DNA of 32,970 nt from Atribacteraceae bacterium (GTDB lineage: Bacteria > Atribacterota > Atribacteria > Atribacterales > Atribacteraceae). The notes under the pieces are model-generated. The model was not told the origin of the DNA, did not search any database, and saw only the letters and a list, made by a program, of their open reading frames with translations. Location of the stretch: positions 1 through 32,970 of the forward strand of contig DATIKP010000076.1 in assembly GCA_035477455.1 (NCBI GenBank), read 5' to 3'. Each line of letters starts with the position of its first letter. The first letter of the stretch is position 1. Of this stretch, positions 25,516 through 30,479 are shown piece by piece. Both the position numbers and the translations under genes were made by a program.

Positions 25516-26208
25516 ATGGACGATACTGTTGAGATGAATGTTTCCCTCAGCCAGGGTTTACGAAGATTGCCGGTGTTTCTGCTGCTGGATATCTCCGGAA
25601 GTATGATGGGAGCACCCGTTCAGGCTGTTCAGGAGGGCGTGGCTCTTTTCAAGCGGGAAGTGGAAAGCGATACCTTTGCCCGGGAGACGGTCTGGATAGG
25701 GGTTATCACCTTCGGCCGCCAGGTCAGTAACCTGACCGGGGGACTGGTTCCTATTGAACAATTTTCCCCGCCTATTCTGGATGCCGGGGGATATACGCCC
25801 CTTGGTCAGGCGATGCGTCTTCTCATCGAACTTCTGGACCGGGATGTGAAAAAATCGCAAATCGGCGGAGAAAAGGGAGACTGGAAACCGCTTGTTTTTA
25901 TACTAACCGACGGGAAACCGACGGATAACTGGCAGGGAGCACGGGAAGAAATCCTGAAACGTAAAGACCGAAAAATCGTCCAAGTCATTACGGTGGGGTG
26001 CGGTCCGGAAATAGACGAGACGACCTTGCGAGAGGTAGCCATAGGGCCGAGTTTTCGGATGGATGCCGATTCGGTTTCGTTTGCCGCTTTTTTCCGCTGG
26101 ATCTCCCAAACCGTGAAAACGGTGAGTAAAAGTCTCAGCCAACCCCAGGGAGAGAGTCTGCCCACACCGATTCCACCTCCTCCTGAAGCTCTCCAGTATA
26201 TCCCCTAA
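25516..26208 (+). CDS. von Willebrand factor A (TerY-like) protein
   Basis: A 230-residue soluble vWA-domain protein. The metal-ion-dependent adhesion site is complete: D25-I-S27-G-S29 in LLLDISGSMMG, T94 in GGYTPLGQAM and D132 in LTDGKPTD. Size and sequence resemble the TerY group. The C-terminal tail is proline-rich (PTPIPPPPEALQYIP), a possible docking segment. ATG 25516 is chosen over GTG 25510 because GGGAGG is seven bases upstream of the ATG. Directly after it come a PP2C phosphatase and a kinase, the TerY-P triad order, so it probably acts as the metal-dependent binding partner or target of the kinase/phosphatase pair. Confidence 0.9.
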   Translation: MDDTVEMNVSLSQGLRRLPVFLLLDISGSMMGAPVQAVQEGVALFKREVESDTFARETVWIGVITFGRQVSNLTGGLVPIEQFSPPILDAGGYTPLGQAMRLLIELLDRDVKKSQIGGEKGDWKPLVFILTDGKPTDNWQGAREEILKRKDRKIVQVITVGCGPEIDETTLREVAIGPSFRMDADSVSFAAFFRWISQTVKTVSKSLSQPQGESLPTPIPPPPEALQYIP

Positions 26209-26331
26209 CCTGACTTGTTACGTTGTCCCCCGGCGAATTAGCCGGGAGGATCGTTAAGGAAAAAGTTTAGGAAAAACCTTCAGCTGGAGAGAGCTTCACC
26301 GGGATGGAGAGAACGACTAAGGAGAGCATAG

Positions 26332-27315
26332 TTGCGTGACCGAGGATTTATTGTTGGCGACCGTGTGGTTTCTCATGCATTCGAAACCCACCCGGAGTGG
26401 TGCGCCGCATACGGAAAACGGGGGAATTATACTGTTGTCGGCGCCAGTGTGGTAGGCAGATTGCACCTGCGCGATCACCGCGGACGAGAGGATAGTTTCT
26501 TGATTCGGTCTCGGGGAGAATGGCTTTTGATCGCTGCGGCTGACGGCCTTGGATCTGCCCGGCTGGGAGCGTCCGGCTCTTCGTTGGCGGTCAGTGCATA
26601 TAGTGAGTATTTTTTGGGGTCACTTCCTTCTTCACCGGAGTGTCCAACCGAGGCCAAGCCTAAATTTACTCCTCTCCGCAGGGAAACCGCGCAGCCGCAT
26701 GAAGAGGCCGCAGAGGAATATGGATGCCTGTTCTGGTTCCGGGAAAGCCGGAAAAACACCCCGGCAACGCCTGTTAGTTCGCAGCAGTTCGACCTGGAAA
26801 CAATTACACGACAGTCGATCGAACACGCCAGGAGCATCATCAGTGGATGGGCGGATCGGAGCCGGGCAACCATGAGCGATTTCGCCACGACTTTAATCTC
26901 CTTTCTTATCAACTCCCGGACGGGATTGTGTTTTGGCCTGCAATTGGGTGACGGTGCTGTGGTAGGTGTCCGGGATGACGAATCGACACTTCTGGTCAAG
27001 CCCCGCTTAACCGGTGAGGTCGGGGAAACACCGGTCATTACTCAGGCCGACTGGCAGGACTGGGTGGTAACCGGAACCCTGTCCTGGGAGAAAGAACAAT
27101 TACATGCCGTCCTGATCATGACCGACGGGGTTGCAGACGATTGCTTGTACGGCCCGCCGGGCAACATCTTAAATCTTTTCGGCCAGGACATCACCAGAGA
27201 GATTCACCGTTCAGCCTGGCCTGACCGTTCCGCTCGGAAACTCGTTCGATGGTTGAGCACCTACCGGTCGCGTTCCAGTTGGGACGACCGGACCATGGTG
27301 ATAGTTTTTCAATGA
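26332..27315 (+). CDS. PP2C-family Ser/Thr protein phosphatase
   Basis: A 327-residue protein with the metal-binding motifs of PP2C: GREDSF (E53-D54), AAADGLGS (D71-G72), IMTDGVADD (264-270) and WDDRTMVIVF at the very C-terminus (D318-D319). A loop of about 50 residues after 100, rich in Pro, Glu and Lys, is not usual for minimal PP2C. The start is a TTG at 26332 with AAGGAGAG six bases upstream. Its stop overlaps the kinase start by 4 bases (ATGA), so the two are translationally coupled. It likely removes phosphates placed by the kinase. A 123-base gap after the vWA gene holds nothing recognised. Confidence 0.92.
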   Translation: MRDRGFIVGDRVVSHAFETHPEWCAAYGKRGNYTVVGASVVGRLHLRDHRGREDSFLIRSRGEWLLIAAADGLGSARLGASGSSLAVSAYSEYFLGSLPSSPECPTEAKPKFTPLRRETAQPHEEAAEEYGCLFWFRESRKNTPATPVSSQQFDLETITRQSIEHARSIISGWADRSRATMSDFATTLISFLINSRTGLCFGLQLGDGAVVGVRDDESTLLVKPRLTGEVGETPVITQADWQDWVVTGTLSWEKEQLHAVLIMTDGVADDCLYGPPGNILNLFGQDITREIHRSAWPDRSARKLVRWLSTYRSRSSWDDRTMVIVFQ

Positions 27316-28679
27316 TTATCCGGACTTTTTCTCATCATTCCCATGTTCCTGATCGTTTTGCCATTGAAGGACCGCTCTATGTCGGTGGCGAAGGAGAAAT
27401 ATATTTCAGCCGGTGTGGACGCTTTGTCATCAAGTTGTACCATGACCGACTCAACTCACCGGAACGGGAGAATTTCCTGAAGAAGGTTCTATTTTTGGGA
27501 CGGAATCTGGGAGAAGACTTGAAGTATCTGTGCTGGCCCCAGGCTTTGGTGGAAGAACTTGATGGTGTGCGTAAGATTGGGGTAATAACCGAACGAATCC
27601 CCCGCCCCCCCTTTCGGGAGCTTGTCGATTATATTTTCAGCCCCAGAGAATTTAAACGGGCGGTCGAGGAAGGGATACACTGGCTGAATTATCTCCGGGT
27701 CGCCCATTCTCTGGCCCGGTTGGTATCAGTCTTGCACGGCAGGGGCTGTGCTCATGCCGACCTCCATTTCAATAATTTTCTGGTGGATATGCGAAGCGGT
27801 CGGGCAGTGATGATCGATCTCGACGGATTGGTCATTCCCGGGTTTCTTCCCCCGCAAGTGCTGGGCATGATCCCGTTCATGGCTCCGGAAATAATCAGCC
27901 GGAAATCCTCGCCCGATCAGGGGAGCGACCGGCACAGTCTCGCAGTTCTCGTCTTTCAGACATTGCTTTTACGCAACCCTCTGCAACCCCTCACCTGCTT
28001 CCAGTCCGACGATGCCGAACAGGACGAACTCATCGGCTGGGGACGGGAAGCAGTCTTCAGCGAGAACCCCTATAATTTCCGGAATCGTCCGAAACGGTTG
28101 GGTTATCCGCTTTATCAGCAGGGAGTCCTGAGCGTGAACATCCTTCCTCCCGAGGTTCGCGCGCTTTTCGAACAGTGTTTTATCCAGGGCCTCTTTCATC
28201 CGAACAGGCGGCCTCTGGCCAGAGAGTGGGAAATGACTTTGAATCAGACTTTTTTTTCGGTCTGGCCCTGCAGATGTTGCGAGCAGCACTTTCCCTATCC
28301 TGTTTGGATTTCGTCTGGGACCCGGCGCTGTCCGTTCTGTGGAAAGGCCCTGTTGCCTCCCTTTCCGGTTGTCCTCCGAGTCTATCATGCTAAAACCGCG
28401 GAAGTGAGCGTGGTAAGACCGGGTTGCCTTGTGCTCGGTCACCGGTACCGGGTCATTGAAAAAATGCTTAAAAATGATGGAAGCAGACTCTCTTATGGAG
28501 AGGTTCGTTTGCAGGCAGGCAGGTATCACTTCATTCCGGACCTGCCGGTTTCCGTTCTTCCGCCCGGAGAGAGTGGAAACCGGCGACGCTACCGGGAGGG
28601 AGAGGGCCTTGAGCTTCTCCGGGGGATGCTCATCGAATTTGGGGAAAACTGGTTTGAAGTGATCGAAGATGGACTCTGA
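27312..28679 (+). CDS. Protein kinase with internal zinc ribbon and beta-rich C-terminal domain (TerY-P-type)
   Basis: A 455-residue protein. The kinase lobe has a Gly-rich loop VGGEGEIY (24-31), Lys41 in FVIKLYH, the catalytic loop H148-A-D150-LHFNN (D and following N as in active kinases), D169-L-D171-G in place of DFG, and MAPE (190-193). After residue 315 comes a zinc ribbon: CRCC (320-323) and CPFC (340-343). A final domain of about 100 residues is beta-rich with a GHRYRVIEK and FEVIEDG pattern; its family is not recognised. The start ATG overlaps the PP2C stop. It is soluble. It is expected to phosphorylate the vWA or beta-helix protein. Confidence 0.87.
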   Translation: MIIRTFSHHSHVPDRFAIEGPLYVGGEGEIYFSRCGRFVIKLYHDRLNSPERENFLKKVLFLGRNLGEDLKYLCWPQALVEELDGVRKIGVITERIPRPPFRELVDYIFSPREFKRAVEEGIHWLNYLRVAHSLARLVSVLHGRGCAHADLHFNNFLVDMRSGRAVMIDLDGLVIPGFLPPQVLGMIPFMAPEIISRKSSPDQGSDRHSLAVLVFQTLLLRNPLQPLTCFQSDDAEQDELIGWGREAVFSENPYNFRNRPKRLGYPLYQQGVLSVNILPPEVRALFEQCFIQGLFHPNRRPLAREWEMTLNQTFFSVWPCRCCEQHFPYPVWISSGTRRCPFCGKALLPPFPVVLRVYHAKTAEVSVVRPGCLVLGHRYRVIEKMLKNDGSRLSYGEVRLQAGRYHFIPDLPVSVLPPGESGNRRRYREGEGLELLRGMLIEFGENWFEVIEDGL

Positions 28680-29700
28680 AACGGTATTAATCACCATCAC
28701 CCAAGAGCGGAGTACCTTTCCGGTTTTCCTGGGCGATGGCGCCGTCCTGGTTGAAATACCTTCCTTTTTGGAATGGCAGGGGACTGGGCAGGGTGAGGCC
28801 GTTTTTTCTTTGAAAGAAAGAATTCAGGGCCGGATCCTGCAGGGTTCATTGGTTTTCTGTAAAGATATGCGGCGCTACACCCTTCCTATAGTTCTCCGGA
28901 AGAAATATGAAGACACGTCGAAGGAAGGAACAGCATTGTTTCCGGAAGACGGCTATACCATCCCCTTGCGGCTTGAATCGCTTCTGGAAAACGAGACTCT
29001 CCTTCTGGGAACGGGTGATTTCCGATTAGGAGGAGCGTTCTCCATCGTGAATCCGGTGAATGTTGCCGGTGTTTCGTCGGAAGCGACCTTTCTGGAAAGC
29101 GACGGGGCGGTAGTCCGGATTGGAGGAAAAGGGCGGAAGGTGTTTTCTGGCATCACTTTTCGCAGCCGTTCTCTATCCAAGGGGAATGTCGTTGTGGTCC
29201 AGAGTGGCGAGGTATTATTTCGGGATTGTCGGTTTACCGGAGGCTTGCCGGAAAAAGTCGGTTGGATGGGAAACGGCTTGGTGATTACCGGTTCGTCCCG
29301 GGTTACTCTGGAACGATGTTCATTGTTCCGAAACAAGTCGTGTGGAATGATCGTCAATAAAGGAGCACGGGTCCTATTCACGCAGAGCCGGATTTTTTCC
29401 AACGGCCGGGAAGGAATTGCAGTAGGGCGGGATGGGTCAGTTGTTTGCCGGGGTTCTCATGTTTATGAGAATAGCTGGGGGGTGAGTGCCGGTGGGGGCA
29501 GCGCAGTGGAACTGACCGGTAATTTCATTGAGGACAATCGCCTGGGGGGCCTATTGTTTTCAGCTCTTGCCGAAGGCACAGTCAGGGGTAATCGGGTATG
29601 GAACAACCAAGTCGGGGTTTATTGCCATCCCCAGACCCAGATCGTCTTCGATGAGAACGATTTACAGAATAACGCTTGTGATTTTCTCAGGCAGGAATGA
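28669..29700 (+). CDS. Cytoplasmic right-handed parallel beta-helix (PbH1-repeat) protein
   Basis: A 343-residue protein whose start overlaps the kinase gene by 11 bases. From about residue 115 to the end it is made of repeats of 22-24 residues with short beta strands and Asn/Gly turns (GNGLVITGSSRVTLERCSLFRNK, GIAVGRDGSVVCRGSHVYENSW, GGLLFSALAEGTVRGNRVWNNQ), as in pectate-lyase-like solenoids. The N-terminal 110 residues are a separate beta-rich part. No signal peptide or membrane segment, so it is not an exported lyase. In context it may be a scaffold, substrate or effector of the kinase/phosphatase system. Confidence 0.82.
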   Translation: MDSETVLITITQERSTFPVFLGDGAVLVEIPSFLEWQGTGQGEAVFSLKERIQGRILQGSLVFCKDMRRYTLPIVLRKKYEDTSKEGTALFPEDGYTIPLRLESLLENETLLLGTGDFRLGGAFSIVNPVNVAGVSSEATFLESDGAVVRIGGKGRKVFSGITFRSRSLSKGNVVVVQSGEVLFRDCRFTGGLPEKVGWMGNGLVITGSSRVTLERCSLFRNKSCGMIVNKGARVLFTQSRIFSNGREGIAVGRDGSVVCRGSHVYENSWGVSAGGGSAVELTGNFIEDNRLGGLLFSALAEGTVRGNRVWNNQVGVYCHPQTQIVFDENDLQNNACDFLRQE

Positions 29701-29738
29701 CTGTAAAACGGCGTTCCTGACTGGAGGAAACAGTACCC

Positions 29739-30479
29739 ATGACGAAACAATCAGAGGAACGACGGTTAGCCAGGTTTATTCTCGAGCGGGCCCCTTGGTT
29801 GGTATTGACGGGTGCTGGGATTTCCACTGAAAGCGGCATCCCGGATTTTCGCACCCCCGGCGCTGGCTTATGGGAACACTATAATCCTATGGCCCTGCTT
29901 TCGACGGAAACCCTAAATAACGATCCAGAGACTTTTTACAGAATAGGGTACCCGGTGCTCAGGAAGTTTCGCGACGCGTTGCCCAATCCAGCCCATCTGG
30001 TTCTTGCTGATTGGGAACGGCGGGAATGGGTACGAGGGGTTGTCACCCAAAATATCGACAGTTTGCACATCCGGGCCGGAAGCCGGGAAGTGCTGGAAAT
30101 ACACGGACACCTACGTACTGGATCCTGCCGCCGGTGCCGGAGCATTTTCCCGATTGACCGTCTGGAAGAACAGCTCGCCAAGGCTATCATCCCTCCCCGG
30201 TGTCTATGCGGGGGTCTGTTGAGACCGGATGTTGTCCTGTTTGGAGACCAGCTTCCGGACGATTTTTCGAAAGCTCAAATGTTGGCCCGGAGTCATCCGG
30301 TTCTGGTGGTCGGGTCGAGCCTGACAGTTTCTCCAGCGAATCTCCTGCCTTCGGTTGCTCCTGAGTTGGTCATCGTCAATGTCGGACCGACGCCTTATGA
30401 TGATCGGGCAACGTATCGGTTCCAAGAGAAAGCCGGGGTTTTTTTCCCTCGGCTCCACGCCTTGCTTTTGGGTCAGTAA
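29739..30479 (+). CDS. Sir2-family NAD-dependent protein deacylase (CobB-like)
   Basis: A 246-residue full-length sirtuin. NAD-binding GAGIST-ESGIPDFR (25-38), TQNID (103-107), catalytic H122 in EIHGH, the zinc site C130-x2-C133 and C155-x-C157, and VVGSSLTVSPA (190-200) are all present. It removes acetyl or acyl groups from lysines with NAD+ as co-substrate. It follows the beta-helix gene by 38 bases on the same strand, with GGAGG 11 bases before the ATG, so it may be part of the signalling operon. Standard housekeeping function is equally possible; all catalytic residues are intact. Confidence 0.94.
   Translation: MTKQSEERRLARFILERAPWLVLTGAGISTESGIPDFRTPGAGLWEHYNPMALLSTETLNNDPETFYRIGYPVLRKFRDALPNPAHLVLADWERREWVRGVVTQNIDSLHIRAGSREVLEIHGHLRTGSCRRCRSIFPIDRLEEQLAKAIIPPRCLCGGLLRPDVVLFGDQLPDDFSKAQMLARSHPVLVVGSSLTVSPANLLPSVAPELVIVNVGPTPYDDRATYRFQEKAGVFFPRLHALLLGQ

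Follow-up and report, generated by a model that had tools for sequence, protein, structure and literature searches.

A TerY-P-type gene triad without ter genes, joined to a beta-helix protein gene, in Atribacteraceae and a sister family

Genes at the locus

The window analyzed here is a stretch of 32,970 nucleotides from an Atribacteraceae bacterium (contig DATIKP010000076.1 of assembly GCA_035477455.1), and its contig belongs to a genome of 2.16 Mb. An ORF check of the window located five genes on the forward strand. The first (25516..26208) encodes a TerY-like protein of 230 amino acids with a single vWA domain (Pfam VWA, 2.4e-09), and is followed by genes for a PP2C-type protein phosphatase (26332..27315, 327 amino acids, TTG start; PP2C_2, 1.1e-24), a Hanks-like kinase with a C-terminal zinc ribbon and a further beta domain (27312..28679, 455 amino acids), a beta-helix protein (28669..29700, 343 amino acids; Beta_helix, 6e-23), and a sirtuin (Sir2, 29739-30479; SIR2, 5.2e-45). 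The kinase match to Pfam Pkinase (3.1e-07) scores 30.5 bits, just below the cut-off of 31.7.

The vWA, PP2C, kinase, and beta-helix genes—hereafter the cassette—form one co-directional and intact-looking block, the last three overlapping. The first-pass annotation had described a packed run; its figures are exact for the PP2C/kinase overlap (4 bases), the kinase/beta-helix overlap (11 bases), and the spacing between the beta-helix gene and Sir2 (38 bases), but 123 bases separate the vWA and PP2C genes, and the four-gene run is therefore not fully packed. A hairpin (CCCGGC-GAATTA-GCCGGG, 26227-26249) without a T run lies in this gap, which in most loci of the sister family is very short or absent. 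Scans for promoters and terminators found matches no more often than expected by chance, and Rfam gave two tRNAs only, both outside the cassette.

The triad proteins

The vWA protein is 71-75% identical to its orthologs in eight genomes of the sister family and carries a MIDAS motif (DISGS, 25588-25602, forward strand), the pattern DxSxS...T...D being invariant in the alignments. It is 34-38% identical to the TerY proteins of ter operons, which have the same complete MIDAS, and is without a TerY_C domain. The phosphatase is 39-43% identical to its sister-family orthologs, among which the metal motifs ED, ADG, GDG, TDG, and DD, all present in the window protein, are invariant or nearly so, and it shows 25% identity over 300 residues to a ter-operon PP2C (E 2e-10). 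At one locus (L013:10397-11460) the PP2C ortholog is represented by two overlapping ORFs, owing to a frameshift or an assembly error, with the other cassette genes intact.

The kinase is 56-60% identical to its close orthologs, all of which are found in the sister family, and residues K41, D150, N155, and D169 are invariant in the ortholog alignment. The four cysteines of its zinc ribbon (28269..28340, forward strand; C320, C323, C340, and C343) are invariant in all aligned TerY-P kinases, those of ter plasmids included. The C-terminal domain that follows (28368..28676, forward strand) is predicted to be all-beta, with a pLDDT of about 54-91 by block, and has no sequence match in Pfam or the PDB; an FHA domain, suspected by eye at this C-terminus, was rejected, neither resource supporting it. 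The predicted structure of the whole kinase is poor (pLDDT 56), so that its fold search simply finds kinases again. Judging from the conserved catalytic and metal-binding residues, all three proteins appear active, in agreement with the initial description of a complete vWA protein, PP2C phosphatase, and active-looking kinase.

Identification as a TerY-P-type triad

Searching plasmids with tblastn returned matches to the kinase together with its zinc ribbon at E values of about 1e-41, in Azospirillum, Aromatoleum, and many enterobacterial plasmids. At the three plasmid loci that were read, the kinase gene comes after those for vWA and PP2C in a setting of TerD genes, with TerC and TerB also encoded at two of them. 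A scan of genome contigs, some of them short, gave 79 further TerY-P loci from several phyla among the best matches listed, and most of these show the vWA-PP2C-kinase order. All three members being homologous, with the same gene order, a zinc ribbon on the kinase, and a complete MIDAS, the vWA, PP2C, and kinase genes are identified by sequence as a TerY-P-type triad, arranged as in genuine triads including those of ter operons; the first-pass assignment to this class is thus borne out. In the kinase tree, the clade of the window kinase is separate, with a support of 99, its exact placement being unsure because of long branches.

The absence of ter genes, also pointed out at first pass, extends beyond the locus: none is present in the window, and the whole genome gave no TerD or TerC match. 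The TerC and TerD family genes by which a tellurium-resistance (ter) system is recognized are accordingly not found near the triad. Such an absence is not unusual, since 35 of the 79 listed loci (about 44%) have no TerD, TerC, or TerB homolog nearby, some contigs being short, and the other 44 have at least one.

Comparison with known systems places the window set within a varied group. TerY-P has been hypothesized to be a metal-sensing phosphorylation switch, and accompanies CoCoNuT restriction systems (PMC11090510). The triads of ter operons and CoCoNuT loci share with the window set the members, their order, the kinase zinc ribbon, the MIDAS, and the catalytic residues, whereas the window set is without ter, restriction, or TerY_C partners, its PP2C is shorter, a beta-helix protein is encoded by a fixed fourth gene, and its kinases fall into their own supported branch. 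TerY-P-like anti-phage systems with a kinase-OB fusion (Gao et al., 2020, cited in PMC11090510), as far as that citing account describes them, likewise consist of a stand-alone vWA/PP2C/kinase set; the window kinase differs in having a zinc ribbon, followed by a beta domain, and the PADLOC model STK_OB matches its catalytic core only. The Escherichia coli yegI-pphC-yegL genes also constitute a chromosomal kinase/PP2C/vWA set without ter genes, but YegI is extremely divergent and shows a helix-hairpin-helix match in place of the zinc ribbon, and the set is flanked by genes for an Hsp70 and a DUF2314 protein, a beta-helix gene not being among its neighbors.

Conservation of the four-gene block

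A search for kinase orthologs in 40 related genomes found close ones only in the sister family, in eight genomes of three genera; a larger set from the phylum added one weak partial kinase match and nothing more, and a contig scan with the kinase alone as query returned no relatives. Around the close kinase orthologs of all eight genomes, the order vWA, PP2C, kinase, and beta-helix recurs. The beta-helix gene lies directly 3' of the kinase gene in seven of them; in the eighth genome, G017, the kinase gene is the last on its contig, and the beta-helix ortholog lies on a different one. Within the order (25 genomes), a beta-helix ortholog was found in 9 of 9 genomes with this kinase and in 0 of 16 without it. 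These genomes are related, and the counts are therefore not independent events; the pattern is exact all the same. Orthologs of the vWA protein follow the same distribution, being confined to kinase-bearing genomes apart from a distant triad in genome G009. The beta-helix protein is thus, as judged from gene order and co-occurrence, a genuine fourth member of the unit, and the proposal that the triad is joined to it holds.

The distant set of G009, a member of the window's own family, comprises vWA, PP2C, TerY_C, a kinase with a zinc ribbon, and a TPR protein (locus L019, contig C250), with the metal-binding TerY_C domain encoded by a gene standing alone (Pfam, 1.6e-08).

The sirtuin gene and the origin of the cassette

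Sir2 had been read as an extension of the module, and a unit of triad, beta-helix protein, and sirtuin acting together would accord with its location on the same strand after a gap of only 38 bases. Sir2 is, however, nearly universal in the order (23 of 25 genomes), and the majority of the genomes that have it do not carry the cassette. Own-family relatives that are without the cassette keep Sir2 in the same place, in the order ECF, DUF362, Sir2, AI-2E transporter, and glycosyltransferase, with a DUF362-Sir2 gap of 41 bases in one of them; and in the cassette-bearing sister genomes it lies, wherever found, on another contig. Sir2 was therefore rejected as a cassette member, and a five-gene functional module is very improbable. 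As a conserved unit it is refuted, co-transcription in this genome alone being possible: of the neighborhood proposed at first pass, four genes are kept together in relatives and Sir2 is scattered. The ECF and DUF362 genes were likewise rejected as members, and are regarded as neighbors only, because own-family relatives that do not have the cassette keep the two genes together. In genome G005, also of this family, a DUF362-Sir2 gap of about 345 bases (L054:9917-10260) contains small-repeat-like stretches at the position where the window has the cassette.

The existence of close own-family relatives without the cassette indicates that it is dispensable. The ECF gene (and in some genomes DUF362 too) adjoins the cassette in both families, the ECF gene of the window groups with its own family, and the kinase has diverged between the families (about 58%) to much the same extent as the flanking Sir2 and AI-2E genes; taken together, these features fit vertical descent. 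Presence of the cassette in the common ancestor, followed by repeated loss, would be the simplest account, and transfer of the cassette to the same site a less simple one. A mobile or viral origin was also considered and rejected, the plasmids being without the beta-helix protein and viral contigs giving one weak partial kinase match.

The beta-helix protein

The AlphaFold model of the beta-helix protein is good (pLDDT 84), and shows an all-beta, beta-sandwich-like N-terminal domain (residues 1-79) followed by a right-handed parallel beta-helix. No signal peptide was recognizable at the N-terminus, as judged by eye. The segment KGNVVVV...GGLPEKVGWMGNG (residues 171-204; 29179..29280, forward strand) is the most conserved, with profile values of 0.4-0.7 compared with about 0.3 elsewhere, and model confidence is lower at residues 191-200, consistent with a loop. 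This segment is a candidate binding loop, and thus a candidate site for a partner or ligand. Fold matches had low TM-scores and were generic, to carbohydrate-active and tail-spike helices, and a role as an enzyme was rejected, no catalytic identity having emerged. The right-handed beta-helix is shared with NosD and other beta-helix proteins (NosD Pfam match, 2.6e-12). Unlike NosD, the window protein has no signal peptide on inspection and has an extra N-terminal beta domain; its 25.3 bits fall short of the NosD family cut-off of 300, and its PDB fold matches are generic only.

That the triad is real and the beta-helix gene a fixed neighbor without a functional tie might be suspected from the rapid evolution of the protein, which is only 28-33% identical to its sister-family orthologs, and from the orthologs of loci L014 and L017, in which most of the N-terminal beta domain is missing, so that this domain is not essential. 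This interpretation is nevertheless improbable: the start of the beta-helix gene overlaps the kinase stop, the two genes co-occur without exception, and the gene 3' of the beta-helix gene differs between genomes. A functional partnership is accordingly preferred here.

In other lineages the triad is followed by other genes. This beta-helix protein is not beside the triad in any of the 79 loci among the matches listed, and is absent from four further planctomycete loci and from the kinase-flanking sequence of a fifth; one planctomycete genome encodes generic beta-helix proteins, on other contigs. The Pfam tally of genes downstream of triads gave other families among the first 25 listed, and the G009 triad is followed by its TPR protein gene. 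Since the following genes vary by lineage, the triad seems to serve as a common front end to which each lineage adds partners of its own, and a swapped fourth partner fits the habit of the module. No relevant paper linking TerY-P and beta-helix proteins was found among those searched. In ter-less triads of Bacteroidota (Hymenobacter, Chitinophagaceae, and relatives; L079-L088, e.g., L079:9517-11300), the next genes encode a strongly conserved protein, apparently membrane-anchored at its N-terminus and with a weak exopolyphosphatase/actin-like signal, and then a coiled-coil protein, possibly another dedicated partner pair.

Proposed function

The region 25516-29700 probably encodes a TerY-P phosphorylation switch that is chromosomal, is passed on by vertical descent, acts in a stress response, and has a beta-helix protein as lineage-specific partner or output. 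We infer the signal, targets, and biochemical function of this switch, with its kinase/PP2C control of the vWA and beta-helix proteins, from the TerY-P literature (PMC11090510). A cytoplasmic kinase would be gated by its zinc ribbon and C-terminal beta domain, the cue being at a guess a metal, redox, or nucleic-acid one, and would phosphorylate the vWA protein and/or the beta-helix protein, the PP2C phosphatase resetting that phosphorylation. The vWA MIDAS may hold the beta-helix protein via the conserved loop at residues 190-204, and phosphorylation may control assembly of the vWA/beta-helix complex, which could, again as a guess, be the output in a stress response. A more specific proposal, put forward tentatively, is that the cassette represents a TerY-P subtype of its own, whose switch governs a cytoplasmic beta-helix protein dedicated to it, and that the conserved loop of this protein recognizes a ligand or invader.

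The main functional rival is anti-phage defense of the TerY-P type, with the beta-helix protein as phage sensor or effector. In Pseudomonas, three-gene TerY-P systems confer protection from phage (PMC10889362), TerY-P occurs alongside CoCoNuT restriction systems (PMC11090510), the presence of the cassette in the order is patchy, and PADLOC kinase models give weak matches to the kinase. Defense is nonetheless rather unlikely, given that in both families the cassette is stably located next to the same flanking genes, with a vertical signal, that no nuclease, helicase, or other defense gene lies alongside, that PADLOC gives nothing for the vWA, PP2C, or beta-helix protein, and that viral matches are almost nil.

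As to the phosphorylation switch with a beta-helix partner, the triad is of a known kind, and what is new is the ter-less, beta-helix-associated variant. TerY-P triads are widespread, but to our knowledge little has been established about what they switch. A stand-alone triad with one fixed extra protein offers a minimal case open to direct testing. Phosphorylation of the beta-helix or vWA protein by the kinase would identify the substrate of the module free of interference from ter or restriction genes, and, if the proposal is true, beta-helix proteins would constitute a new class of TerY-P output.
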